Assembly (NCBI GenBank): GCA_027382625.1
Contig: JAJKFJ010021486.1
Span: 1-64,000, forward strand
Origin: Tetmemena sp. SeJ-2015
Taxonomy: Eukaryota; Ciliophora; Spirotrichea; Sporadotrichida; Oxytrichidae
DNA length: 64,000 nt
Reading direction: 5' to 3'
Every line of letters begins with the position of its first letter. Position 1 is the stretch's first letter. The notes beneath the pieces were generated by a model. The model was not told the DNA's origin. It made no database searches and worked only from the letters and a program-made list of their open reading frames with translations. Position numbers and translations under genes: made by a program. Positions 4,815 to 64,000 of the stretch are shown here, piece by piece.

Positions 4815-6663
4815 TTCTGAAATTTAGTATAGCTTCTGCTTCTGCTTGCAGTCTCCCTTTTGCTACATACCAAAGCGGATACAGAAATTCTAAATGAACA
4901 ACCCACAAACTATAAACTGATAGAGAGATTTTGCGAGAGAAATGTAAAGTTCCTGACCTAAGAATCTACTCTGAAAGATTCATCAGCCTTAACAAAACAG
5001 AATACAAGTACACCTCCTTCGTCTTAGTCGTTTATGTTCAAAATGTGCATGCAAAAGTTGGAATTAGAACTAGAAAATTAGAAAATTACGATTGAGTAGT
5101 TTCAATATAGTGAGACGCACACCACAACTAGTGAAACTGTAATTGAAGAGGAGCAAGTTCTTTAATTCCCTTAACTGCCTGAAATGAAGGAAAGAAGCGC
5201 TTCTTAATTTTTAAAGAGTTAATTAAGCGCGAAAGATATGAGCTCGTTTCTTAAGAGGATGCTATTCACATGGGACGTGAGTGGCACTATAATTTCTGGA
5301 GACTCTGGCAGTAACGTTACAAATCAGACAACAGTTACCACCACTACTAAAATAGAGTCAATCATTTTGTAACCTATTACATATATACATAATCAGTTTA
5401 CGACCGATGAAAACGGGAATCAAGTAGTGGTTGATTAGACCACAGTAGTGGGAATTAATACTGCGACTACTATCGCCCCTAACTTACCAACACCTTGGCA
5501 AGCTGGAACTACTACCACCCCTTCTCCTACTACTACCAAGTCGTCGAGCTCTATAACAACAAAGACATCTACTTCAACGATTACCTCCACCACATCTACC
5601 ACTACTAAAACGAAATCGACTACTACTCTGACTTCATCTACAACTACTAAGACTAGCTCAACAACTACAAAAACTTCATCGACAACAACGAAAACAACAT
5701 CTACTACAACGAAGACAACTTCAACATCAACAAGCACCAGCACTTCAACAACAACCAAGACGACATCATCAACTACCCCTGCTCCGACCACTACTGTTGC
5801 AACAACTACTGCTACTACTACTGCAACAACTCCAGCTCCCACTACTTCCACGACATCAACCACCACTATCACATCAACAACAACAGCATCCACTACTACT
5901 CCAACCACAACAACGTTAACCACTTCCACAACCACTTAAATTCAGCTTTTCGATGCTACTTTACTTATTTTCACTCTTACCTCTACATCAACCACAACTT
6001 CGACCACAACGACCACTACTACAACTACAACCACAACGACTACTACAACTACAACCACCACTACGACAACCACTACTACGACAACGACTACATCGACAAC
6101 TACCACATCTACAACAACATCGACCACCACAACCACGTCAACTACTACATCCACGACAACGACCACGACCACTACTACTACGACGACGACCACAACCACA
6201 ACCACCACTACAACAACAACTACGACCACCACTACGACAACCACTACTACGACAACGACCACAACGACAACGACGACAACGACAACTACCACTTCTACAA
6301 CCACATCAACAACTACGACAAGTACCACAACTAGCTCAACTACGACACCAGCACCCACGACAACGACGAGCACCACGACATCTACTCCAACCCCTTCTAC
6401 AACTACGACAACCACTACAACAACCACTTAGACAACTACGGTTACAACTCCTGCTCCAACAACTACGCTAGCAGCTACAACCACAATAATATCTACAACA
6501 GATGTGCCAACGACAACTTAGCTTACAACCACAACATTCCCATCGTAGGTAAGCTTCTCTTAAGAGCAATCCTCAAAATAAGACTTCACCACCTCTCAAT
6601 CGAGCATGATCGTAGCTTATGTTTCCATACCCGTTATTGCGGCTGGCATGGCCGGAGCGATTG
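4815..6663 (+). CDS. Thr-rich mucin-like membrane protein A, segment 1 (ectodomain to transmembrane start)
   Basis: One open frame (UAR=Gln) begins with a hydrophobic signal-like stretch (LLLLLAVSLLLHTKA, about 4830) and continues through a charged N-domain to LKRMLFTWDVSGT at about 5250, a motif shared with paralogue B. A second shared block (FTTDENGNQVVV) lies near 5400. From 5500 to 6540 the protein is almost entirely Thr with Ser, Pro and Ala, as in heavily O-glycosylated mucin-like stalks. It then reads VSFSQEQ..SSMIVAYVSIPVIAAGMAGA, entering a membrane helix. Past 6663 the plus-strand reading is not like the paralogues; the tail continues in the inverted segment at 7173. Surface location and function are inferred. 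The true first exon and start codon are uncertain. Confidence 0.75.
5500..6540 (+). repeat. Degenerate ACN-triplet (poly-Thr) tract
   Basis: About 1 kb made mostly of ACT/ACA/ACC/ACG codons, giving long runs of Thr on the plus strand and artefactual poly-Val open frames on the minus strand. The third positions vary freely, so this is selection or expansion at the protein level rather than a perfect microsatellite. Shorter versions occur in the paralogues at 8160-8690, 10420-10640 and 13640-13830. Confidence 0.9.
6654..6663 (+). other. Pointer: end of gene A segment 1
   Basis: The 10-bp word GGAGCGATTG closes segment 1. The same word opens the inverted segment, where it lies on the minus strand at 7164-7173. 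Both copies sit in the same codon phase (Gly-Ala-Ile), so joining at one copy keeps the membrane helix open. The flanking bases differ on both sides, so the match is exactly 10 bp. Confidence 0.82.
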
Positions 6664-7862: not shown

Positions 7863-8810
7863 ATTTTTAAAGACATACGATCTCTACTAAAGCGATTGCT
7901 ATTCACTTGGGATGTGAGTGGTACCGTCACTCAAGGAGATAGCAGTGTGAACACAACTAACACAACAACAGTCACAACTACTACTATTCTTAAATGCGTT
8001 AATGCAATCTTTTTATGTCAGCTTGAATGTTTACAACGGACGCTAATGGAAACTAAGTAGTTGTTAATCAGACGACCACAGGAACTGGAACTGGAGCAAC
8101 TACTACAACTGCTGCTCTAAACCTACCCACTCCATGGTAAGCAGGCACCACTACCACACCATCACCAACTACTACTAAGGCAGCCACAACTACCAAATCC
8201 ACCACCACCAAGACTACCACTTCCACGACTACCACCAACGCACCAACCACTACTCTCGGATCAGTAACCACCCTTGCTCAAGGACAAACTCCGTCTCCTA
8301 CTACAACAGCTGCTACAACTACATCCACAACTACTAAGACTACAACCACGACGTCAACGACTTCAACCACAACCAAGACTACAACCACAACCACAACAAC
8401 TTCAACCACCACTAAGACTACCACTACAACTACAACCACTTCAACCACCACCAAGACAACTACGACAACTACGGCAGCCCCTACAACCACTAAGGCTGGA
8501 GCCACAACATCTGCTGCTACAACAACTGCACCTACAACCACTGCTGCAACATCGACTGCTGCTACAACCACTAAAGCAGGAGCAACTACCAAGAGTTCTT
8601 CATCCACTACACCAAGCCCCTCAACTACAAGTTCCTCAACTGGCTCTTCATCCAGTACAGTGACTTAGACCACAACTCCTGCAACTACTACCACAACTTT
8701 CGCATTCGTGAGTTTCTCCCAAGACCAGTATTCAAAGTAAGACTATACCACCTCGTAATCAAGTATGCTGGTCGTGTATGTCGCAGTACCTGTGATCGTA
8801 GCAGGCATGG
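7863..8810 (+). CDS. Thr-rich mucin-like membrane protein B, segment 1
   Basis: This begins FKDIRSLLKRLLFTWDVSGT, aligned with AKDMSSFLKRMLFTWDVSGT in A, followed by TTDANGNQVVVNQTT, a Thr-rich stalk (8160-8690), and VSFSQDQYSKQDYTTSQSS. It then enters a helix, MLVVYVAVPVIVAGM. A frame break near 7985-8040 must hold an insert or intron. The reading past 8810 meets no helix end or tail; these lie in the inverted segment at 9293. It starts only about 10 bp after the stop of gene A. The signal peptide is missing here (see 7436-7569). Confidence 0.72.
8803..8810 (+). other. Pointer: end of gene B segment 1
   Basis: The 8-bp word AGGCATGG closes segment 1 and opens the inverted segment, where it lies on the minus strand at 9286-9293. 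Both copies are in the same phase (Gly-Met). The flanking bases differ. It lies a few codons upstream of the corresponding junction in gene A. Confidence 0.78.
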
Positions 8811-23818: not shown

Positions 23819-24463
23819 TATCTTTTCTGATTGAATGAGTAATTGAGTGATGATAGATTTAATAATAACATTAGTGTCGTTTATAACAGAGAATACAATG
23901 GAAAGCAAATTAGCTTAATGGTTCTATTTTAATTTATGTAAAGAATGGCTGTTTAGCTATCTATCTCCAGCTTAAATAATTATAGTATCATTCGATACAG
24001 TAAAAAGTTTAAAGAATTTTAGCTTAGAGGGGACATATATAAACGAGGCAAGTTTATAAGATGACTCTAATTAATATTAAAGTTAATGCGCCAAGCAGCT
24101 TTTACCTCTTAAAGAAGAATTGGTGAAATGATTATAGATGAAGCCCAAAATAATATGGGTTATTATCGATCAAACAGAAGATCAAGGGGTAATATTTACA
24201 CGAACTCCCGCTGAGCTGCAAGCCCTACTTTTATTTTTTAATATCATCGATTTTAATTAAGTTCTCAACTATACTTAATCAAGAGTGCGTTAATCAAAAA
24301 AAGCAGAAGTCAATACATTTTCACTAAAATGACTTCTAATCTTATTAACTCCCTCACTAATCCTACTCTAATCTTATTGATCTACCTATAAAGCACTTGC
24401 ATTTTGAATTTTCACATTTTTTCATGCTTAAAAGGTTATCATCAGTGACATCATGGATCGTTT
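23819..24463. other. Intergenic region
   Basis: AT-rich, with no gene recognised. It lies between divergent starts (protein X - and aspartic protease +), so it should contain both promoters. Confidence 0.5.
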
Positions 24464-25609
24464 ATGAATCTCACTCTTCTATCTAACCTAACTAATATGC
24501 AGAAACTCGCCCTTTTGTTGCTGTTGGCTTCATCCGCCCTCTCCGCCAAGATCCCCCTTAGAAAGCAGGCCCTCTCCAAGGAGAAGGTCCTCACCTTCAA
24601 GGACAGACTCTCCAGATCCACTGTCTACAACGACAACGGACTCGGCACCAACGTCCCCGTCAAGGATTACATGAACACCCAGTACTTCGTTGACGTCTCA
24701 GTCGGAACCCCCGCTCAGACCTTCACCGTCGTCCCCGATACTGGATCTTCCAACCTCTGGATCTACTCCTCCAAGTGCTCTGCCTTGGTCTGCCTCTACC
24801 ACTCCAGATACGACTCCACCAAGTCATCCACCTACAAGGCCAACGGAGAGAAGTTCGGCATCACCTACGGATCTGGCTCCATCTCCGGAACTGTCTCCCA
24901 GGATGTCAGCAGCCTCGGTGACTCCGATGCTCCCATGTACTTCGGTGAGATCTACTCTGCCTCCGGCCTCGCCTTCTACGCTTCTCAGATGAGCGGTATC
25001 CTCGGACTCGCTTACGACACCATCTCCGTCGACCACCTCCCCACCTTCGTCGACCAGTCCAACCAGTCTGACAAGTCATTCGCCTTCATGCTCCACTCCA
25101 ACCCCGAGGACTCCTACTTGACCCTCCCAGGTTACGATGTTGAGGCTGTTGGTGACAACAAGTTCCAATACCACAACGTCGTTGAGAAGAAGTACTACTC
25201 CCTCAACCTCACCGGTCTCAGACAGGGCTCCACCCAAATTCCCTCCAACAACTTCAAGGCCGTCATCGACTCCGGCACTTCAGTCCTCGTCGGACCCAAC
25301 ACCCTCGTCAACCCCCTCATCCAGGGCATCACCGTTAACGAGGACTGCTCCGGCATTGACGCTCTCCCCGAGATTGCTTTCTACATTGACAACATTGAGT
25401 ACGCTCTCCAGCCTGCTGATTACGTTCTCCAAGTTACCCAAGGAGACCAGACCCAGTGCGTCCTCGCCGTGATGGGACAAGACTTCCCCGCTGGCTTCGA
25501 CTACTTCATCCTCGGAGACACCTTCATGAGAAAGTACTACTCCTTCTTCGACAAGAACAACGACAGAGTCGGATTCATCCCCGCTTCCAAGCTCAACACC
25601 ACCCACTGA
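24464..25609 (+). CDS. Pepsin-family aspartic protease (cathepsin D-like)
   Basis: A single uninterrupted 381-residue frame. A hydrophobic signal peptide (LALLLLLASSALSA) follows either of two Met; the second (24497) gives the more usual signal length. A short propeptide leads to both catalytic motifs of family A1, VVPDTGSSNLWIY (about residue 91) and AVIDSGTSVLVGP (about residue 268), with the flap YGSGSISG and the ILGLAYD and FILGDTFMRKYY blocks. It is expected to be secreted or lysosomal, for digestion in food vacuoles. Codons end overwhelmingly in C or G, no TAA or TAG is used for Gln, and there is no intron or IES. This is unlike every neighbour and typical of a very highly expressed gene. 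Confidence 0.96.
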   Translation: MNLTLLSNLTNMQKLALLLLLASSALSAKIPLRKQALSKEKVLTFKDRLSRSTVYNDNGLGTNVPVKDYMNTQYFVDVSVGTPAQTFTVVPDTGSSNLWIYSSKCSALVCLYHSRYDSTKSSTYKANGEKFGITYGSGSISGTVSQDVSSLGDSDAPMYFGEIYSASGLAFYASQMSGILGLAYDTISVDHLPTFVDQSNQSDKSFAFMLHSNPEDSYLTLPGYDVEAVGDNKFQYHNVVEKKYYSLNLTGLRQGSTQIPSNNFKAVIDSGTSVLVGPNTLVNPLIQGITVNEDCSGIDALPEIAFYIDNIEYALQPADYVLQVTQGDQTQCVLAVMGQDFPAGFDYFILGDTFMRKYYSFFDKNNDRVGFIPASKLNTTH

Positions 25610-36771: not shown

Positions 36772-36780
36772 TGTGTTCTC
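36772..36780 (-). other. Pointer: end of PP4R3 N-terminal half
   Basis: TGTGTTCTC on the plus strand (GAGAACACA in coding sense) occurs here and at 45709-45717. Both copies encode Glu-Asn-Thr in the same phase. The flanking bases differ on both sides, so the match is exactly 9 bp. Confidence 0.85.
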
Positions 36781-39519
36781 ATTGTCAAGAATGACCTTCA
36801 TGAACTCGAAGACTTGGATTTTGATGCCTTGCTCGTAGGAGTAGAGCAGGTGCTGTGTCAGTCGCTTAATATTACCTTATTTATAACAGGTGTTACTTTA
36901 TTAATATTAGCTTATATTTGAGAATAAAGGGGAAGCCCTTCTTTAGTTGCTGCTCTCCGAGGATGAAGGAGCGGAGACTAACGGAGGGTGCGTGGGAGAC
37001 TATGCTCATCAAGATCTCAATCGAGTTTATCTTCAGCAGGTCTATCTTTCTGATGTCGTACTTCTCGTGCACTTTCAAGAAGTCATAATACAAAAATAAA
37101 AGAAATTATTTACTTATTTTAGAGTCTTGTACGTATTGCTTCACCTTCTCCTCAGTCTGAGTGGTAGAGCCAGAAGCCATCTGCTACTTCACGATTTCAT
37201 TAACCAGCACTCCCTCGTCCCTTGCAGCCTCAGCTTTGAGGGTGATGTGGTTGGGCTCGAAGAGGTTGAAGGACTCAGCCAGGATTTCCACCAGGGAGAA
37301 GGATTTGATTTCTTCGAAGCACTGGTATCGAGCGTTGACTTGTAAGTTTTTGGAGAGCTGACACACCTCCATGAAGAACTCAATTGCATCATGCTTTGTC
37401 TGTAGATCATCCTGTGACTTCATCTTCTAGTATAACTCCTCATTCAATGACTCATCTATTAAATTATTGGGCCTCTAAGATTTCACGGCTGTAGAAGATA
37501 GGATAAATGAATAATATAGTGATGATGAGATGTGGTTGACTATGTCCTGGGATTTCATGTAGATGATGGAGTTGATGTTATTGAGGACTTGGTCGTCGAT
37601 GAAGCGAGCAATGGCAGTGTCCTTCAGATAGGTGAGTCTGTATACGAGATGGATGTACTCCAAGATCTGTGGGTCTGAGATCTTCACCACCTGCTTGAAC
37701 TTTAACTCGTTCTTAAGGAAGTCTCTGTGCTTCAAGTTCTGAACTCCAGAGCTCCCAACAGATACAAAGCTTAATGTATATATACATATGTTTGAATGAA
37801 TGAGTTAACAGAAGAGGAGAGAGCTTGAGTTCTCTGAAGTGCCTCCTCGGCAGTTAGATTTGCTTGCTCGATGAATCCCAAAGCACTCATTTAGGTATTT
37901 GAAGCACAGCCTTGACGGTTGAAACTGGGGCTGGACAGAACTTCTGGATCATCTATAAAGTATTTTAAGATTTCAAAGGTATGCATACATTCAAGTGCAC
38001 CTAGTGTTGTCATAAAGAATTCTGCTGAGAGTAGAGTTTCAATAAGCTTGGTGTCTCCAAGTGAAAGCACACTCTTGAAGAATTAGAACATCAAGAATTA
38101 TAAAATTGCGAAATAATTCGTTCTTCATTTTTTTAAGAAAAGAGTCTCCTAATTTTCAAGATCCTCCGCCTTTTCGAATATCTCTTCAATATTTTTCAAG
38201 TAGCCACACTATAAAGAGGATTAAGAAATGATGTGCATGCTTACGTTATCCTTAAGTAGCAAGCCACTGATCTTTCTTTTCTGCATCAAATCCAATCCTC
38301 CTGTCAATTCCTCAACTACTATATGCATATTCTCAAGAGTGGGAGGAGTCGGTAATTCCTCATCTTCCTAGTCCCTCTCATCTAGATAGTCCTACTGACA
38401 GCCTTCATCGGGATTCCTGCCTTGAATTATGCATACCGATTCCCAAGTCTCCTGAGCGCCCTTCGAATCCTAGAAACTGAGAGCAAAGTCTATCATATCC
38501 TCCTCAAAGAGCCAGGTTATTATGGTGTCTATATAATTTAATGTAAACATCTCCACTCAAGTTAAAATATTAGTACTTACCTCTTTACCTCTGTAGACTC
38601 GAAGCAGAGGATATTTTCATCCGCAAAAGATGCCTATCTTTAGCATCCTCATCTATCAGATGCATGTAGAAATCTCCCTTGTCCTATAGTCAGAGTTAAC
38701 ATCAAGAAAGTTGTGATAGAGCTTACATCTTAAACCAGAGAAAACTCTCCAGTTCCAAAGTCATCCCAAGATCCCTAGGGATTTAGCTAGTAGAGCTTGG
38801 CTCTCCACTTATTCTGAGATATATCGCCCATCGTCCCGTAATCTTTATATTACAAAGTGTATACTATCATTTGCAAATCGGTTTAGTTAAGAAGTGCTAT
38901 TTGGTCCTCGTCAAATTCAAAGCCACCATTTCCGTTACCTTCTTATTTTCCTTCATCTGTGATCTTCCCGCTTCTTTTTTGGCTATAAAGCCTATTCCAC
39001 TCTTTGGCTTCTGAGATGCTCCTGGCAGCTTCTTATTCGCTATCAGCCCTATCGAAATTTTCGCCTAAGTAAGACCCCATGCCTTTTCCTTGGCCTTAGT
39101 AACCGTTTATCTTATCTAAGTCTAGTAAAATTAAATAGTAATGATAGTATAGTTCGTAGGTATCATAAATAGCAGGGGAGCCGTAGAGAGTGAACTCAAG
39201 TTTAGGTTCATCAGATCTCAGTTCATCCTCGAGCAAGTCTGAACCTAAATGGGCTGATTTCAGAATTCGGTCTGAGTGAGGAACTACTCCCCTCTCTTTA
39301 AATTCTACAACAATTCAATAATCCAAATTACAATATAGTTATCTCATAAGTCTCAAGCTCAGTCTTCAATTCGATCTCCATATGGATATCGGCTTCTGAG
39401 CGGAGGGCACCGTCCGCTTCTTGAGAAAGGGATCTCTAATGAATCTCCCCCTCTTCTTGTGGCTAGTTTGCTGTGATCTCCTAGTTACTTTTTGACTCCT
39501 GATTATCTGAGCCTTCCAT
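36772..39519 (-). CDS. PP4R3/SMEK (protein phosphatase 4 regulatory subunit 3), N-terminal half
   Basis: It starts at 39519 (MEGSDNQESKSNQE). After an acidic leader, the EVH1/RanBD-like domain contains VYTLQ.., KLYQLNPQGSWDDFGTGEFS and an IITWLFEED-type block. The SMEK armadillo region follows, with the LELIE..-type helices, ELKFKQVVKISDPQILEYIH, YRLTYLKDTAIARFIDDQVL, SIIYMKSQDIV, FFMEVCQLSKNLQ and SIVSHAPSVSLRSFILGEQQ. The last recognised residues are FMKVILDNENT, where family members continue into a TEKSEFLNFFYKH-type block; that block is found only at 45.7 kb. The protein targets PP4 phosphatase to substrates in DNA-damage and cell-cycle control. Several introns interrupt it (for example 37440-37470, 38570). 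Confidence 0.88.
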
Positions 39520-40030
39520 ATTCTTACTTTACAAAAAGCACATCTTTCAATCACACTAGTTAACTTAGTTTGGTTAGTGATTTCTCTGAGTGAGAAGTTT
39601 GCTAGTTGGTTTGGTGTTGAGTGGTTGGTTGTTCCAAGTTACTTGGTGTGGTTCTTAGTGGTTGGATGTGAATGCGAGTGAGATTAATCAATCAGACAAG
39701 CAGCAAGAATGAGTAAATAAAATATTATTATATATAGATATAATCGGTTTGGCGCCCCTCTCCCTTATAAAGCCTTATAATATTTATCACACGCGCTCTC
39801 TGCCAATCATTTTATAATATTTCTCCCTTAATTATTATAGACTGGACCTCCAGCCTCTCAGCGGCTAGTTTTTAAACTCATTCGCTCCAAATCTCACACT
39901 TCATCTACTAAGCCATTCACTCTTAAGAGAAAGATTTCTTGTAGTTTTTTGTCATTAGAGATATATAAAATTAATAAGTTAGTAGTAAATCTTTGCTGAG
40001 ATATAGCGATCAAAAATACAAGAGCAGGAA
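39520..40030. other. Intergenic region between divergent genes
   Basis: Contains GGTT/TTGG-rich text at 39570-39660 and AT-rich sequence before the villin gene. No gene is recognised. The promoters of PP4R3 (-) and the villin-like gene (+) are expected here. Confidence 0.45.
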
Positions 40031-42860
40031 ATGGTAGAAGCAATTCACGGACACGTTTACTTGGAGAGAGAAGAGTTGGACTTGGAAATTAAGAGACTCC
40101 AGGAAAAGGCAGAGCAATTCTTTGCTGTCGCAGGCAAAGAGTCAATTGAAGTATATAGAGTAGAGAAGTTTGAGCCAGTGAGGTAGGACGATAAGTTCCT
40201 GGGAAAGTTTTATGATGGAGACTCCTATGTGATCTTAAAGCAGAACGATAAGGACTATGATATCCATTATTGGCACGGCAAGCACGCCTCAGGGGTAAGA
40301 CTATTCCTTATATCATTTCCTAAGTCTCTTTGCTATAGGATGAGCAAGCAACTGCAGCAGCTTTCACTGTTCAACTTTCAGATAACCTCAAGCTGCCTTC
40401 TCGACATCACATAAAGAGATACTATGTACTTCTTTATTGCTTATCACTTGGAACTGATGATGGAAGAAACCGCTCTGTTCTTATCTTACTTCAGAGACGG
40501 TATCTTTTACCTTGAGGGTGGAGTAGAGTCTGGTTTCACACACGTCGAGCCCAAGACCTATGAGAAGAAACTTTACATCATAAAGGGAAAGCGCTACCCC
40601 AGAGTATGGACAGTCCCAATCAGCGGAGACTCCCTCAACGAAGGAGATGTCTTCATTCTTGACCTCGGTATGAAACTATTCTTCTGGCCAGGTCAGGTTA
40701 ATTTTTAAAGCCTCTATTTTATAAGAGGAGTGCAACGTGAATGAGAAGATGAAGGGAATGGAGATTGTTTTCAATAAACTTGCCAATCTTAAATGTAGAC
40801 TCTGCAAAAATAGAATGGTGTTTATCAAGAACAAGGAGAGAGGTGCCTTCCCTCAGATTTTCTACCCTAGGGATGACGCAGACTGCGAGGGCGAGTTCTG
40901 GGCAGAGCTCGGCGGCAAGCCAGCTTAAATTAAAGCAGCAATCCCTGATGAGGGTGTTGAGGGAGGTGCTGGAGAAGGAGATTTAGCTTACTCCTTCTAT
41001 AAGATTTCTAATGCCTCAGGAAAGCTTGCTTATAGTAGTAAAGATTTATTGATATATTATACTTAGCTTGAGCTAACTGAAATCACTGAGAGACCTTTGA
41101 GAAGAGACCACTTGGACACTAACGATACATTTTTACTTGAATTGCCTGACACTATCTATGTCTGGATCGGACGCCACGCAAACCTTGAGGAAAAGAAAGA
41201 GGGCATGCTCACTGCCAAAGCTTTCATTGAATCTAAGGGCAAACCTAAGAACACTAAGATATCCAGGATTCATTGTTCTTCATAAAACATTGTTTATATG
41301 TATTCCTGAGGGAGCAGAGGATACTCACTTCAAATCCTTCTTCAACGGATTCTACCCTTGTGTGAAGCAGGACTTCGGAGCTGGCAAAGGCTTCAGCTCA
41401 GACACTGCAAACTTCGATCTCGAGAAGCTGGCAAACCAACAAAGACAAGCTGCCAAAGAGCTCTTCGATAGACTGGCAAACTACAGCATGAGATCTTAAG
41501 TCATCAACTTTATTAAAGTTTAAAGAGAGTGTTCGTAGTTGAGGACGGACAACCGGTGTAGTTGAAAGAAGCTGAATACGGACACTTCTATGCTGAGGAT
41601 ATCTACATCATAGACTTGCAAGGCACTGGTCATAGATACGTGATCATGTGGATGGGTCCCAAATTGGAAGCTGAACAGCACACAGCTACTTCAACTTACA
41701 TGGACTTAGTCACTAATTACGAAAATTCTAACTCCATCACGAGAACAAGAGTTCGCAGAGGCCACGAAGAGGAGTCTCTGCTTTCACTCTTCCCTAATGG
41801 CTTCATTATTCATCAAGGCCACAGATTACCTCTCAACGAAAAAATTGAATCTGTCAAGAGGAATGGAGCTATGTATAGGATTTAAGCTCCTAATGGCTCT
41901 GCTGCTAGAGCTATCGAACAGCCTGATGTTAAATGCGCCAACTTGAACAGTGGCGATGCTTTCATCGTAGTTGGAGGTGGAGCTAGCCAGGCATACTTAT
42001 GGCTTGGAGAGGGTGCTAATGAACCTGAACAGGAGTTAGGAGATAAAGTACTTAGAACCTTGTTCTGGGGCGTCCAAGGAAATACACTGAAAGAAGGAAA
42101 TGAAGACTAAGGCTTCTGGGATTCTCTTGGAGGCAGAAGCGAGTATAGCACCTCTAAAGATACCGGAATCGCTGCCGGCTTCGAGCCAAGACTTTTCCAC
42201 TGCTCTAACGCACAAGGATATTTCCACGTTCACGAAGTGATGCATTACGCCCAAGACGACATGCTTAATGATGACATCATGTTGACTCTATTAATTGCTA
42301 TAGCTTTATGTTGCTTAGATGCTTACCAAACTATCTATGTCTGGATCGGTAACCGTTCAAATGACTTTGAGAAGAGAGGTGCTTTCAAATCAGCTACTAA
42401 GTATCTTGAGAATGTTCGCGATGAGAGAGACAAGGATAATGTGCAAATAGTTGAGGTAGAAGCTGGAAAGGAACCTCCTTCCTTCACTATTCAATTCCCA
42501 GAGTGGAGACTAGACAAGGCACAGAAATGGCTAGATGCAGATCCAATCAAGCTCATGAAGGGAAGAATTCTCAAGGGTGTTACTCTAAAGCTTGAAGAGA
42601 AGAAAGAGGAAGCCTCTAAATACATAGTAAAATTATGATGTCATCACTTTAATTATTCTAAATTCTTGGACCCTAAGACTAACAAGTTCCCCTATGAAAA
42701 CTTGAAGGAAGTGTTCCCTCCCGAAGTTGACCCTGCTAGAAAGGAGGCTTATCTCACAGACGAAGAATTCTTTAAACTATTCAACATGACATTGACTGCC
42801 TTCTATGATCTCAAGAAGTGGAAGCAGCAAGAACTTAAGAAGGCCAAGCTTCTTTTCTGA
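40031..42860 (+). CDS. Gelsolin/villin-family actin-binding protein with headpiece
   Basis: It starts at 40031 (MVEAIHGHVYLEREELDLEI). Six gelsolin-type repeats can be followed: IEVYRVEKFEPV..HYWHGKHAS; KLYIIKGKRYPRVWTV..; TFLLELPDTIYVWIGRHAN; DIYIIDLQGTGHRYVIMWMG; DAFIVVGGGASQAYLWLGEG; and TIYVWIGNRSNDFEKRGAF. A villin headpiece ends the protein (FPYENLKEVFPPEVDPARKE, KKWKQQELKKAKLLF), stop TGA 42858. Villin-type proteins sever, cap and bundle F-actin under Ca2+ control. A 44-bp GT..AG intron follows HASG; a 37-bp IES follows at 40406. Further breaks lie near 40695, 41250, 41500 and 42290. The gene sits between the two halves of PP4R3. Confidence 0.93.
40406..40447 (+). other. IES in the villin-like gene (pointer ATCAC)
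   Basis: ATCAC at 40406-40410 and 40443-40447 flanks a 32-base AT-rich insert without GT..AG. Deleting one copy plus the insert (37 bp) joins LPSRHH to LELMMEETALFLSYF, restoring the conserved end of gelsolin repeat 1. Confidence 0.8.
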
Positions 42861-43247
42861 TCTGATGAACTCTCAACATTTATATGAAAGATAGTAGTGC
42901 TCTTTTAATTATCCATCAGCTATAATAGATTCTTATCACATCATTTATTATTCATCAGCACGTAAATGGCAAGCTAGTAGTATCTCTACTATGATAATTC
43001 AAGAAGAGAAATAGGAATTAAAGAAGAATAAAAGGTAGGAAAAAGTTTAGGGAGAAATGGATCTACATATTGGTATTTCAAATTGAAAACAATGAAGACT
43101 TAAGGTCAGCTTGAGTTTTATATATAGTATTTTAATTCTGTCTGATATTGATTGTCATCGTATGGTCGGTCTCTATTTACATACTGCTGACTGTCTGTTA
43201 TCACTTATAGTAATTGAAGTTGTAATTTGAAACGATGATGTTCATTT
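42861..43247. other. Intergenic region between convergent genes
   Basis: AT-rich, with no gene recognised. Confidence 0.45.
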
Positions 43248-44665
43248 TCACTCTGGTTTCATCTCTATATCCTCTGAGGGATCAACACTCTCGGTATTCG
43301 TTGATTTCTGTTCATATTATGATTGAGGGGGATCGTTTTCTTGGTTATCGTTTTTTGGGGAAAAGATTGAGCTCTCACTAGTCTTCTGTCTCTTATTTTT
43401 AAAGATAGAGCGTTCCAGCTCATCAAAGGAATCCAAACTGCCTGATAAGGGCTTTTCATAAAACACAAATAAGTATATGTGAGTGTATGAGAACTGTCTT
43501 TCATCTTATAATCTCCCAGAGACTTAGTCGACCAGGACTCCTCCGCTCACAAATTCATCCTGATCCATTAGGAAATCTGATATCTCTTTTGAGTCCTTCC
43601 TCTGTGAATAAGTATTTCCTTGTCCTTGAATACTCTACTAATTCTTGCGTGGAATAATTTCATCCACAACTATAGACTCAGATTCAAGTCAAAGACATAA
43701 TAATATTTAAATATGACTGTGCTTTCTGATCAGAAGTGCTTTCGCCTTCTTACTTAGCTTCTCCGAAATTAGAAGAATCGATTTCAAATTCTATTAAGCC
43801 TCTCTAAGTGACTCCAGATGCAATAGCTTGCATTTGCTCCTTAGAGGGTTGAGTTGCTGATAAGCTTGGACTTGAGTGAGCGCTATTATTATTACTGCCT
43901 GGATTCGAGTTGCCATTACTTGCATTGAACTTATTTGCTGCTGCTGGGGATTAGTTGCGAGTGAAGAGACGCTGCTGAACTGGTGAAAGGTGAATTGAGT
44001 TACTTCCTCCACTACCAGATCGTTCTCTAGTGGTGTGTAAGACTAATGAGTCTCCGTTCTCTTTATGAGTTAATCATGAATACAAACCATGATTTCTGAG
44101 GAGAGCTGTTTCGCTTCTCGTTTTAAAGTTGCTTGAATCTATTGAGGCTGTCTCCGTGAAGTCCCATATCTCCCACGATGTCATCCTCATCGTCTTCACT
44201 TGACTATGATCCAGTGGATGGTCTTCTCTTCATGAGTAGACTTCGCTGCTGAGCTGCAGCTGCCTGATTCTACTAATTCTGTTTCTCCTCCTATCTTCTT
44301 CTTCTTGTTAAAAAACTCTTAACATTTAATATCTTCTCTTCAAGTACATCTCCTGGTTGTACTTTGAGTCTTCATCCTCATCGTCTGAGTTGCTGTTTCT
44401 TGCCACTGTGGGTGTTTGCTAAGATAATTTTTAATAGACAATAAGCATTTGTTTGCTGTCTGAGAGGCTAAATAGAGCTTTTTTTGGGTAATAATTTAAA
44501 TACAATAGTGAATATGAATGAAGAGGGTTGCTCTCCGTAGTCGGAGAGGTATTCATCCATTTTACGCATCTGTTCTCTTTACTGTTGAGTGAAGTACCTG
44601 CCGCTCATCAAGATACCTGATCCTAAGTTGCCCGATAACCTTCCTCCCAGACCAATCAAAATTTT
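43248..44665 (-). CDS. Acidic low-complexity protein of unknown function
   Basis: Minus-strand exons read MSGRYFTQQQREQMRKMDEY (about 44605), NSNSDDEDEDSKYNQEMYLK, a Glu/Arg-rich helix (QEEEDRRRNRISR), SSEDDEDDIVGDMGLHGDSL, IDSSNFGEAKQEGESTSDQK, VVDEIIPRKNQQSIQGQG, DSKEISDFLMDQDEFVSGGV and a final SLDSFDELERSIF.. tail with TGA at 43248. There is no recognised domain; the acidic and Gln/Ser composition suggests a disordered nuclear or scaffold protein. It lies immediately downstream of the PP4R3 C-terminal half on the same strand, and PP4R3 proteins often end in acidic tails. It could therefore be that tail, but a start-like Met and the intervening TGA argue for a separate gene. Confidence 0.55.
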
Positions 44666-44850
44666 ATCTCAGAAAAAATCACAGATTAAACAAATCACAA
44701 AAAGATATTTATTGATAAATAATTATTGTAAGATTTTTTAAATAGGATCACAAAAATAAATTGGGAGTTAATGTTATTGAAAAAGAAAGAATTCTCTGTC
44801 AAAATAATAGTGCATAATAAAAAAAGTATAATACCATTAGATTGCTCAAG

Positions 44851-45717
44851 AGATGATGCATAAAATTTGTTGAAACTTAGTTAAATTGTTTATATAATCC
44901 TTTTATACTTTAAATAGCTATATATGTATCTCAAATATTTGGTTAATGGAGGAGGCTGAATTTGAGGCAGAGAGAACTCCTTCATAGCTATCCACGAAGC
45001 TCTTGAAGTACTGCTTGTACTTGTCGGCCTTGAAGATAGGACTCTGAGTAGTTGAGAAGCAGGTGGGTGGCTATCTTTTTGTTGTTCTCCTTCGTTATGT
45101 AGTCGAACAGTTCAAATATTAAAGCATCTATAATTCATAATCTCTCTAAGTTCAAGAATGGTGCTATGAAGCATGTTGGACTTGTTGGGGTTCTCCAGGA
45201 AGATGTTTATCACAGTTTTAAGAAGCATCTTTTCTGATAAGGTACATCACAAACGCATCATCCTTCACCTTTATTATCGCCTTGTAGAACTTCACGATCC
45301 ACAAATTCAGCAGCTTCGACTTGAATTTGCTCAAACTTGAGATGTAAAAAAGCATCTCCACAACCAATCATTAATAATTTCATTTAAGAGATCTTCTCAA
45401 TAACATCAGACTGGACTGCGAAGATGCGGAATCTGAAGGCATGCTCAGAGGCACATTTGATAAAGATCTGCACCACGAGGGATCTTGAGAACTCAAGTGA
45501 CTTTGCTACCTCCTCCTCTTGCAAGTAGTCTACTATACTTTGCTATTGACCTACAATGTTTTCATTAGGCGCAGACTCTTCTTTGCTTTGATCCTCACTA
45601 GAAGCTTCTGGTACATTTTGAGGCTTATCCTCCAAGAATTAGAGGAACACACTTAGCACCTCTCTGTAGAAAAAGTCAGAGAACTCCACCTTCTTGTCTG
45701 TGTTCTCTTGAAAAAAA
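44851..45717 (-). CDS. PP4R3/SMEK, C-terminal half (displaced segment)
   Basis: It begins at the pointer with ENTDKKVEFSDFFYREVLSV, which matches the family's TEKSEFLNFFYKH-type block and should directly follow the last residues of the half at 36.8 kb. It then reads FSRSLVVQIFIKCASEHAF, VIEK/MLFYISSLSKFKSKLL across an IES, IVKFYKAIIKVKDDAFVMYL, TVINIFLENPNKSNMLHSTI, LFDYITKENNKKIATHLL and FKADKYKQYFKSFVDSYEG, matching the remaining armadillo helices in order. It has single-base slips at 45230-45233 (T run) and near 45045. The stop is placed at 44851. It lies just past the stop of the capping-protein gene (45843) and has no good start of its own. Confidence 0.82.
45354..45394 (-). other. IES in PP4R3 C-terminal half (pointer AGAT)
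   Basis: ATCT (AGAT in coding sense) at 45354-45357 and 45391-45394 flanks an AT-rich insert. Deleting one copy plus the insert (37 bp) joins VIEK to MLFYISSL in frame, as the family requires. Confidence 0.68.
45709..45717 (-). other. Pointer: start of PP4R3 C-terminal half
   Basis: Second copy of the 9-bp word found at 36772-36780, same strand and same codon phase. Upstream of it (45718-45842) no PP4R3 homology remains. Confidence 0.85.
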
Positions 45718-45842: not shown

Positions 45843-46946
45843 TCAAATAAGGTTGGGCCTGCTCCAGTCGAACTTAGTCCTAGTGATGGGTAGGATTCTC
45901 CTCATGCCCTTGAGTAGCTTCTCAGAGATTTCCTCGTACATGCTCTCCAAGCCTTCTTGGTACTATAATAAAGGAATTTAGGATAACGCAGTCTCTTACC
46001 TCAGTCTCTAGTTTGTTGATGGCAGCCACAATTTCCTTTGCGGAGAGGGACTTGAGTTTGAGGGTTGGTAGGGCTTTCTTAAGATTGAATTGAATATTTC
46101 CCTGCTCGAAATAATGATTGTGGAACTTTGCAGTTAACTAAGATGAGATATTAATGACAAGAGTGGGACTTTATTTGTTGAGTTCCAGAGATGCTGTCAC
46201 CTCCGATCTCCACAACGTAGGAGGAGAGGAACTCACCTCCCCAGAAGTTCTTGAAGTTGAAGTTGTGGCAGGAGATCTCCACTTTAAGCGCTGAGTTGTC
46301 TACGAACACGGAGAAGTGAGTGGTGCCCTTACGGAATTGTCTACTCACGTAAGCATTCAACTAACTGATAGTCTCATCTCTATAGTAAGGAGTTTTAAAA
46401 CATTAAGGAGGATTACCTCAAGTGAATAAGGTTTGCGGGTAGCTATGAGACTGCTTGATCGTAGTTCTCCTCCTCTAACTTGGCTTCGAGAGTGACTGGG
46501 TGGAAAGAAAATCTGCAGCGCTTTGCTGGATCATAGTACACAAACTCCTCCACAGACTGCACTTGCAACTGCTGAGCCTCCTCTTGCTGCTCCTCAATCT
46601 GATCTTCTTGTGCTTCCTATTGTGCTCCCTCGCCTTCCTCATCTTCATCATCCTCCCAAAGAGCCTTCTTCTTGGTCTGTGCTGGAGCTTGGTAAGAAGG
46701 TACACTTGATGGAGCGTATCTGACTAAAGGCTCCTGTCTGCCGTGTGATGTCACTATTACTTGAGATCCATCGTTTAAGTTAAGCTGTAGCTTGTGATTT
46801 TCATAGTAGTCTCTGAGTGCTTGTTTGATCTCAGGAGTTTGCAAGAACTCGTGGCCGACAATCTTAGAGATGTCCTCGAGCACGTCGTTCAACTCTCCCA
46901 CGGGCGAACTTTAGATAAAGTATTTTATCACTCTGGAGCTGCTCAT
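45843..46946 (-). CDS. F-actin-capping protein subunit alpha
   Basis: It starts at 46946 (MSSSRVIKYFIQSSPVGELN) and continues DVLEDISKIVGHEFL, a coding stretch with an acidic Gln/Glu-rich insert (about 46570-46660), and FVYYDPAKRCRFSFHPVTLE. The C-terminal half carries the family's conserved core: VSRQFRKGTTHFSVFVDNS, ISCHNFNFKNFWGGEFLSSY, then GNIQFNLKKALPTLKLKSLS and GMRRILPITRTKFDWSRPNL, with TGA at 45843. CapZ alpha forms a heterodimer with beta that caps actin barbed ends. Short introns lie near 46360-46420, 46110-46150 and 45965-45995. The insert before the core is longer and more acidic than in animal subunits. Confidence 0.9.
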
Positions 46947-62400: not shown

Positions 62401-64000
62401 TTGATGCACTATGTCCTTGCTATTTGCAGTTATGTCTTGCTGAGGAAGATAGTGGAAGGAGTTTGGATTGTCACTCACGGTCATATTCTACATTATGGTT
62501 GACTCGCTGTCGTTGTTGAAGTCTATTGGAAAATTTTAGTCGACTGAGGACTAATTATTCTAGTTGGGATTGTAGTTCTGATATAGCTGGTCGGAATATC
62601 TAAAGTTTTAGATGTCTTCCGGGGCTAATTGGTTCTATAAGTTAAGCTGCTGATCGAATCCCATTTAAGGGTTATGACTAAAGTTTGTTCCTGCAAGAGG
62701 GCCAAGCGAGTTGTTGGTTTTGAAACTGCTCTCACATTCTTACTAAGCCTCCAAGATAGTCTGGTAATTGTTTGGGTAGTTCAGAATTTAACCTCCACCG
62801 CCATTCGCCATCATCGAGGCTTGAGGGATACCTGCTGTCATAGGGCTGAAAGTGAATCTCCGAGCTTGAAGGATATTCCCCAAACCATTTGAATCCCCAG
62901 AGTTGTGGAAAATTGTCGAGTTATAAGTAAGAGAGTGTATAAATAATTTATGATCTCAGAGTTATCAGAAGTGAGGTTAAACTGTTCTGAAGAAGCAAAG
63001 TTATTCCTATTGTGGCTACTATTTCTTATCTGCTAAGATTGAGCAGCTGAATCCAAAGTAGTAATGGAACTCGACTTGAGATTCTAATTGCTGGGTGGAG
63101 TATTTCGAGTGATGTCAATTGTAGATCTATTCGTGTGTTGCCCATCATAATTTGAGAATCCTGAAAAGTTCTCAGGGTGTTTCATTTGAGCATACTAATC
63201 AAAGACTTGATCTTCTTGATTTATTAAATATATTAAAAGATTGTAATCTCCCCTCTTAGTCATCGAAATACTAGTCACCTCCATCCTGGTTGTAATTTTG
63301 ATGATTATATTGCTAAAGGGATTCTTAAGACTTTTGTTGGTCTTAGTCAGGTCTATTTGAGAAAGTGAGCTCTCAATTGCCTCCTCCATTATCACACTGG
63401 GTCTGTGCTAGGCATTTAAGTTTATCCCTCCACCGTCTTGCTAGGAAGACCCGTTCGAAAAGTAGTTCTTATAGCTTTCAAAAGGATCAATGCCCTGCTG
63501 CATTTTAGCTTAATAGCATTTCTAGCAGCACACTTTGAGCACGGCCTCAAACTGAAATTGTAAATCTTCGTTGAAAGTAAGTGAGTTACCATATTCCTCT
63601 TCCATTATTTGCTTCTCTCGCTCTATCATCTCAAACCGATCTCTTATCTAGCGTTGATTGGTGATATGCTAGCTCGCATGTAGTCTTATTGTTTAGAAGT
63701 GTTCGGTGACTTTCCTCTGCTCTACAGCTTTCAGCTTGAGACAGAATTCTTGAATTGTAGTTTGAAGTTTATGATTTAACACTTGCTCTCTCTTCACGAC
63801 AATCTTTTCTTCGAGGACTTAATTAATCTGAGCTTGTGTTTGAATTAGAGCGTTATTTATGAACTGTTGCTCTTTGGTGTATTGATTGCTGCTCTCTGAA
63901 CTCAATGAGTGTGGTTTGATTACTTTGGTCCTCCAAGTATTGAAAGCGAGAGTCTTCTATTTCTCGAGTACTTTCTTGTATGAAAGAACGAGCGCCTTAA
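62401..64000 (-). CDS. Coiled-coil, Q/N-rich protein (runs off the window)
   Basis: From the right edge leftwards the minus strand reads a long helical segment rich in Glu, Lys and Gln (NNALIQTQAQINQVLEEKIV, EFCLKLKAVEQRKVTEHF, DRFEMIEREKQIMEEEYG), typical of a coiled coil. A CCQKCYQAKM motif follows, then a Gln/Asn/Ser-rich tail (STIDITRNTPPSNQN, NNYQTILEAQQECESS, NYNPNQNNQSSVDQNFP). Many Gln codons are TAA/TAG. Introns lie near 62905-62945 and 63220-63300. The 5' end is outside the window and the stop was not fixed. No family is recognised; a cytoskeletal or basal-body role would be a guess. Confidence 0.55.

Follow-up and report, generated by a model that had tools for sequence, protein, structure and literature searches.

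The window analysed here, positions 1-64000 of a 109,686-bp contig, contains a gene for PP4R3/SMEK that is present as two separate blocks on the minus strand. The N-terminal block (36772..39519) encodes an EVH1-like domain and the PF04802 domain up to profile position 303, and ends with ...VILDNENT at a 9-bp repeat, the pointer GAGAACACA. An ATG is confirmed at 39519; its choice as start codon goes back to a preliminary description of this DNA. The conserved part of the C-terminal block (44946..45707) covers PF04802 positions 319-496; within it the reading frame slips by one base at two places, near 45222 and 45045. Read 5' to 3' along the minus strand, the C half (45.7 kb) precedes the N half (39.5-36.8 kb), and the pieces are thus permuted. 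The preliminary description had already proposed a PP4R3 gene split into two permuted halves, and both the complementary PF04802 coverage and the order on the minus strand bear this out. It had also let the C-terminal half begin at 45717; the half is indeed located there, but this start falls 10 bp outside the pointer, the edge of which is at 45707. A neighbouring gene for the F-actin capping protein alpha (45843..46946, minus strand) ends 135 bp before the C-block pointer and lies outside the locus.

Between the two blocks, on the opposite strand, lies an apparently complete villin-like gene (40031..42860, plus strand; ATG at 40031, TGA at 42860), which can be followed as a single gene, encodes gelsolin repeats and a villin headpiece, and is interrupted by IES-like inserts. 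The gap also contains an acidic, Ser/Asn-rich open stretch (43248..44664, minus strand), itself interrupted and with a TGA at 43250-43248, for which there is no Pfam match. It lies on the PP4R3 strand, shortly downstream of the C half, and a repeat AAATTTT (44868/44664) is a candidate pointer that would lead from this half into the acidic stretch with the frame kept, in a region that has many short repeats. The acidic stretch is probably the C-terminal tail of PP4R3 rather than a separate gene, which leaves one nested gene. Of the two genes that had been assigned to the gap, the villin-like gene therefore stands, with its gelsolin repeats and headpiece, while the acidic one probably belongs to PP4R3 itself.

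Two kinds of short inserts interrupt the PP4R3 blocks. Three spliceosomal introns of the GT..AG type are found in the N half (38684..38726, 38529..38580 and 38209..38244, minus strand; 43, 52 and 36 bp, respectively). They all read GTAAG..TATAG and have boundary repeats of just 0-2 bp. The five other inserts are AT-rich, 20-49 bp long, not of the GT..AG type, and bounded by direct repeats of 5, 5, 5, 5 and 7 bp, with boundaries that were placed with the reading frame and the family match in mind. Three of these IESs are in the N half (38093..38134, 42 bp, pointer TTCTT; 37767..37786, 20 bp, TGTAT; 36865..36910, 46 bp, TAAGC) and two in the C half (45344..45392, 49 bp, ATCTC; 45116..45155, 40 bp, TTGAACT), all on the minus strand. 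PP4R3 thus carries conventional IESs with shorter pointers (5-7 bp) than the scrambled pointer (9 bp). The standard genetic code is rejected: in-frame TAA and TAG occur within the villin and PP4R3 matches, and open frames of at least 150 aa number 16 under code 1 versus 140 under code 6. As code 6 lengthens frames regardless, the in-frame codons are the better sign of a ciliate code. On the basis of this code, the C4A4 repeats that are present, the three GT..AG introns and the five AT-rich, pointer-bounded inserts, we assign the DNA to the germline (micronucleus) of a hypotrich-type spirotrich ciliate. As a check for Stylonychia lemnae, a 17-bp pointer of its actin I gene (PMC2394655) was looked for, with no match.

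The protein domains argue that the two blocks belong to one gene. After removal of introns and inserts, the N half matches EVH1_PP4R3 and PF04802 up to profile position 303 in Pfam, and the C half matches PF04802 positions 319-496 of 497, so that the coverage is complementary and nearly without overlap. When the halves are joined at one copy of the pointer, a single continuous PF04802 stretch from 94 to 496 results, with 254.3 bits as compared with 156.8 and 103.9 bits for the separate halves, the score being approximately additive. Left unaltered, the piece 36914-37801 scores 101.5 bits and the piece 36772-36864, at profile positions 275-303, 12.8 bits; the C half is not reported by a raw six-frame Pfam scan. 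The 105 residues that follow the C-side pointer have, taken alone, no Pfam match at E up to 1, yet they add 26 bits within the C half (77.6 to 103.9). Appended to the N half they add 9.5 bits, as against 0.5 bits when the N half is read through past its own breakpoint.

The pointer GAGAACACA marks the 3' end of the N block (36772..36780) and the 5' end of the C block (45699..45707). It occurs exactly twice in the window, both times on the minus strand, and the copies have the same codon phase and different flanks, in agreement with what had been described before. As a count this is ordinary (0.83 copies expected; at least two in 20 of 100 shuffles), and the weight of the repeat comes from its placement at both breaks. 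It is the sole common repeat of at least 9 bp between the breakpoint neighbourhoods (251 bp each); the other five repeats listed there, with a threshold of 7 bp, all measure 7 bp. Chance is rejected as an explanation: when two 40-nt stretches were drawn at random from the window 20,000 times, only 0.26% of the pairs had a same-phase repeat of at least 9 bp in common. Codon usage turns off at the N-side copy and on at the C-side copy. With a background that excludes the PP4R3 locus, the mean codon log-odds falls from +0.42 in the last 29 codons before the N breakpoint to -0.98 in the next 60; at the C breakpoint it is -0.63 for the 45 codons before and +0.17 for the 105 after, among which several 10-codon blocks are below zero.

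The locus is most probably a scrambled germline PP4R3 gene with a nested villin gene, resolved by DNA rearrangement, to which we give a probability of about 0.88. This is also the reading that the preliminary description had favoured, and it gains support from the pointer-bounded inserts, the coding switch at the pointers and a scrambled gene for DNA polymerase alpha. The latter is split across both strands in the same assembly, with an inverted piece and a shared pointer of 16 bp, in two contigs, and indicates that this genome does scramble genes. An ordinary long intron between the halves is rejected, the order being wrong for cis-splicing. The fused junction is not found in the assembly at up to two mismatches, which means that the assembly contains no somatic copy of the PP4R3 join; this is expected for germline-only DNA, yet it is no proof.

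The germline stores the C-terminal block, the inverted villin gene and the N-terminal block in this order. With regard to the rearrangement itself, we infer that during formation of the macronucleus the 3' GAGAACACA copy of the N block would recombine with the 5' copy of the C block, one copy being kept (...LDNENT+DKK...), and the small IESs would be cut out at their own pointers of 5-7 bp. This removal probably follows RNA templates supplied by the old macronucleus, a mechanism that has been described for Oxytricha. The villin gene would end up on its own or on a shared somatic chromosome. Since the copies of GAGAACACA enclose the whole block in direct orientation, an inside-out excision is conceivable, although we consider it rather unlikely: one IES-like recombination would free an 8.9-kb circle (8,927 bp between the copies before IES removal) carrying the re-joined PP4R3 gene together with villin. 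If so, excision would release the genes that are retained and leave the waste DNA behind on the chromosome, and two unrelated genes would share a circular intermediate, to be cut apart later by telomere addition.

Several other explanations have to be set against a scrambled locus. A misassembly, with N before C as the true germline order and a wrong join between tail, villin and N block, is very unlikely. The assembly does contain regions of poor quality (the two polymerase alpha contigs, aligned over 7,414 bases, show 65 gaps), and the locus is on a single contig, with no second haplotype as a check. However, the sequence on the outer side of each pointer is ordinary and continuous, with the capping-protein gene only 135 bp from one of them, villin is unbroken as one gene between the blocks, and scrambling is independently supported in the two polymerase alpha contigs. 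Even a misjoin would leave the duplicated in-phase pointer as the mark of a germline break.

Even less probable is an origin of the two halves as decayed copies, left for instance by a tandem duplication, with a complete PP4R3 elsewhere. The frame slips in the C half could be taken as decay, and scrambled genes can, according to PMC9797194, arise through duplication and subsequent decay; but similar one-base slips also separate the polymerase alpha contigs, the halves are complementary with almost no overlap and have an in-phase repeat in common, and each is unique at the DNA level in the assembly. Nor is there a trace of the missing halves beside either block in the window, where the best DNA match to either half has an E of 0.011 over 23 bp and the best protein match an E of 0.91. 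In the remaining 45.7 kb of the contig, the N half has a single DNA match, 45 bp long (82%, E 2e-4), and neither half has a protein match. As for a joining at the RNA level, by trans-splicing of two transcripts or of one circular transcript, inspection by eye shows a GT shortly past the N-side pointer and, ahead of the C-side pointer, a T-rich stretch that ends in CAAG, and a splice at these sites could keep the frame. The sites match neither end of the PP4R3 introns, the exact 9-bp repeat would have to be a coincidence, and the pointer-bounded inserts require joining at the DNA level in both halves anyway; this is the least probable of the explanations.

PP4R3 is a simple scrambled locus with one layer of nesting, of a kind already catalogued by the hundreds in Oxytricha. 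In O. trifallax, as reported in PMC5940158, gene pieces of nested ('Russian doll') loci are likewise disordered around the DNA of another gene and rejoin at short direct repeats, and depth-1 nesting, the simplest level, is found in 1,163 of 15,811 contigs, 724 of these scrambled. Whereas the showpieces described there reach up to five layers, the PP4R3 locus, which has a single scrambled pointer and, in all probability, a single nested gene, provides a minimal example, in which conserved housekeeping proteins occupy both nesting levels. The junction lies inside a known protein domain and can be checked by one PCR, and domain coverage together with a phase-matched repeat makes a scrambled gene recognisable from germline sequence alone. 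The direct-repeat layout offers, in addition, a simple test case for resolution of scrambled genes via a circular intermediate. It is reminiscent of IES excision in Oxytricha (PMC6765146) in that direct repeats flank the block and one recombination event would suffice, but what lies between the repeats is retained in this case. According to the same source, MDSs may be present on 86 Oxytricha circles, and on six of these they stem from within an IES of a different locus; of 10,151 scrambled sites, only 4 gave circles, and circle junctions are imprecise. Scrambled DNA polymerase alpha is known in hypotrichs from titles cited in PMC1805493; there too, pieces join at duplicated pointers inside the coding sequence. 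The polymerase gene in this assembly combines an inversion with its 16-bp pointer, in contrast to the permutation without inversion of PP4R3. The pointers of the PP4R3 locus, 5-7 bp for IESs and 9 bp at the scrambled junction, fit the Oxytricha averages of 5 bp (nonscrambled) and 11 bp (scrambled) given in PMC6765146.

In Tetmemena sp. SeJ-2015, the gene for PP4R3/SMEK is carried in two permuted blocks, with the C-terminal half lying 5' of the N-terminal half on the same strand. As the preliminary description had claimed, the halves are complementary: once pieced together, the N-terminal half (39519-36772, minus strand) matches EVH1_PP4R3 and the Pfam domain PF04802 as far as position 303, the C-terminal half (from 45707 downwards, minus strand) matches PF04802 at 319-496 of 497 with 103.9 bits, and the joined whole protein scores 254.3 bits, near the sum of both halves. 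The N-terminal half is a single open frame, from an EVH1-like domain to FEFMKVILDNENT, when three GT..AG introns and three other inserts are taken out, of which a 20-bp insert was placed by hand and then checked. Its unaltered pieces agree (36914-37801, 101.5 bits; 36772-36864, 12.8 bits at 275-303). The C-terminal half begins ENTDKKVEFSDFFYRE and is missing from the matches of the raw six-frame Pfam scan; its unaltered piece 45227-45343 matches PF04802 391-429 with 17.5 bits, under the Pfam cut-off, and 45393-45707, the 105 residues directly after the breakpoint repeat, gives no Pfam match by itself at E up to 1. These residues raise the PF04802 score of the rest of the C-terminal half from 77.6 to 103.9 (26 bits) and that of the N-terminal half from 156.8 to 166.3 (+9.5 bits), whereas reading straight on past the N-terminal breakpoint adds only 0.5 bits. 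On these scores of halves, pieces and joined protein, the protein family clearly backs the join, yet the junction stretch itself is only moderately conserved. At the DNA level, 421 bp of the C-terminal half and 1,029 bp of the N-terminal half each occur once in the assembly, in which no fused junction was found with up to two mismatches. A 45-bp match to the N-terminal half (82%, E 2e-4) lies in the remaining contig, about 12.4 kb past base 63990.

Each breakpoint carries one copy of a 9-bp repeat (36772-36780 and 45699-45707, minus strand). Two copies alone mean nothing, since 0.83 are expected in the window for a 9-mer of such composition. The earlier claim of a same-phase repeat nevertheless holds: this is the longest repeat common to both breakpoints, in phase and at the family break on either side, a standard that 0.26% of 20,000 randomly drawn 40-nt pairs reach. 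The fused DNA would be FEFMKVILDNENTDKKVEFSDFF. Codon log-odds were computed with usage from the dynein and aspartic protease genes and a background limited to 1-24 kb and 26-34 kb. Their mean falls from +0.42 to -0.98 across the N-terminal breakpoint and rises from -0.63 to +0.17 across the C-terminal one; random frames have 5-95% ranges of about -1.3 to 0.0 (29 codons) and -1.1 to -0.2 (105 codons). Four of the ten 10-codon blocks within the 105 codons after the repeat score below 0.

The two halves together contain five inserts of 20-49 bp (GC 0.19-0.27) that are devoid of GT..AG ends and bounded by the repeats TTCTT, TGTAT, TAAGC, ATCTC and TTGAACT; the boundary repeats of the GT..AG introns are only 1, 2 and 0 bp. 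Boundary pairs picked at random 42 bp apart show a repeat of at least 5 bp in 1.7% of cases, a figure biased by the setting of insert boundaries from frame, family match and repeat-seeking. The 5-7 bp at the inserts and 9 bp at the scrambled junction fit the pointers of Oxytricha, which average 5 bp where the junction is nonscrambled and 11 bp where it is scrambled (PMC6765146). The telomere-repeat pattern C4A4 is matched exactly at 67 sites of the assembly, 24 of them forward and 43 reverse, with nine at base 1 of a contig and two at base 9; the control for this count, the same word reversed, is uninformative. An internal cluster of matches lies at G000:C2828:3805-4156.

DNA polymerase alpha, a classic scrambled gene of hypotrichs by the titles that PMC1805493 cites, served as a positive control. 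The pattern YGDTDS occurs at eight places in the assembly, of which two (contigs C1943 and C4161) resemble pol alpha in their motifs; the loci compared were L016 (G000:C1943:133800-143700) and L017 (G000:C4161:9000-18900). Within 9.9 kb of C1943, the Pfam matches are divided between the strands: the pol alpha N-terminal domain, the zinc finger and PF00136 160-240 lie on one, PF00136 52-85 and 98-171 on the other. A 16-bp inverted pointer common to both strands lies at the NSMYG codons and is the sole repeat of at least 9 bp in the two stretches compared. C4161 is 98.2% identical across 7,414 aligned bases to C1943, the contig on which the domains were scanned. Scrambling in this genome is therefore no artefact of a single contig. 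The 65 gaps in the alignment, a large share of them bunched in coding sequence, make it likely that the two one-base frame slips in the PP4R3 C-terminal half come from assembly error. At about 7900-8025 and 8550-8730 of L016, compared with L017, one of these two near-identical contigs has dense 1- to 3-base deletions, some of them in coding sequence, which mark places where the assembly consensus is poor. Three near-identical contigs, C3127, C3894 and C4405 (loci L011, L013 and L015; 98.9% and 95.3% to L011), carry a family-B polymerase that resembles pol zeta in a motif.

In the simplest scheme, the two direct 9-mer copies would recombine, so that the N-terminal half joins the C-terminal half. 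As the block is bounded on the outside by these copies, the same event would circularise the segment with the villin gene inside. Resolution through such a circle, instead of template-guided joining of separate pieces, is improbable: a survey of circles in Oxytricha detected 86 that possibly carry MDSs, yet of 10,151 scrambled sites only 4 gave circles, and the circle junctions were imprecise (PMC6765146).

The villin gene (40031-42860, plus strand) lies inside the gap as first described; the second gene placed there, an acidic stretch at about 44.66-43.25 kb on the minus strand, is probably the PP4R3 tail. It lies directly downstream of the C-terminal half on the same strand, lacks a clear start and a Pfam match in the six-frame scan, and shares with PP4R3 tails an acidic, Ser/Asn-rich composition. 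Against this stand an in-frame stop for the C-terminal half near 44.85 kb and the lack of an unambiguous pointer across the AT-rich 285 bp or so between them. If the stretch is the tail, villin alone would be nested. The locus belongs to the Oxytricha-type nested scrambled kind at its simplest level. For more deeply nested loci, synteny between Oxytricha and Tetmemena has been published (PMC9797194). Of 15,811 somatic contigs of Oxytricha, 1,301 enclose pieces of other contigs, and at nesting depth 1, 724 of 1,163 are scrambled (PMC5940158). A search of open-licence literature found no paper joining PP4R3 with a ciliate.

The window takes up bases 1-64000 of a contig of 109,686 bp, within an assembly of 146 Mb and 5,213 contigs, and its reading frames require the ciliate code, in which TAA and TAG encode Gln. 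Six-frame translations were scanned with Pfam on both strands at 27.7-47.1 kb and on the minus strand only at 47-64 kb, together with one open frame in 1-27700. This places F-actin capping protein alpha and the PP4R3 N-terminal half on the minus strand and villin on the plus strand; Pfam also identifies a dynein heavy chain at about 60.7-47.3 kb (minus strand), with its matched domains in order, and a C2H2 zinc-finger gene at about 32.7-33.1 kb (plus strand). The minus strand of 27.7-37.2 kb gave no six-frame match at E up to 0.01. An aspartic protease frame at 24449-25609 (plus strand) runs uninterrupted for 386 codons, with 231 bits for Pfam Asp and no TAA or TAG codons. Tandem repeats of the ACN type, Thr-rich on the plus strand, form long arrays at 5592-6325 and 8189-8572.
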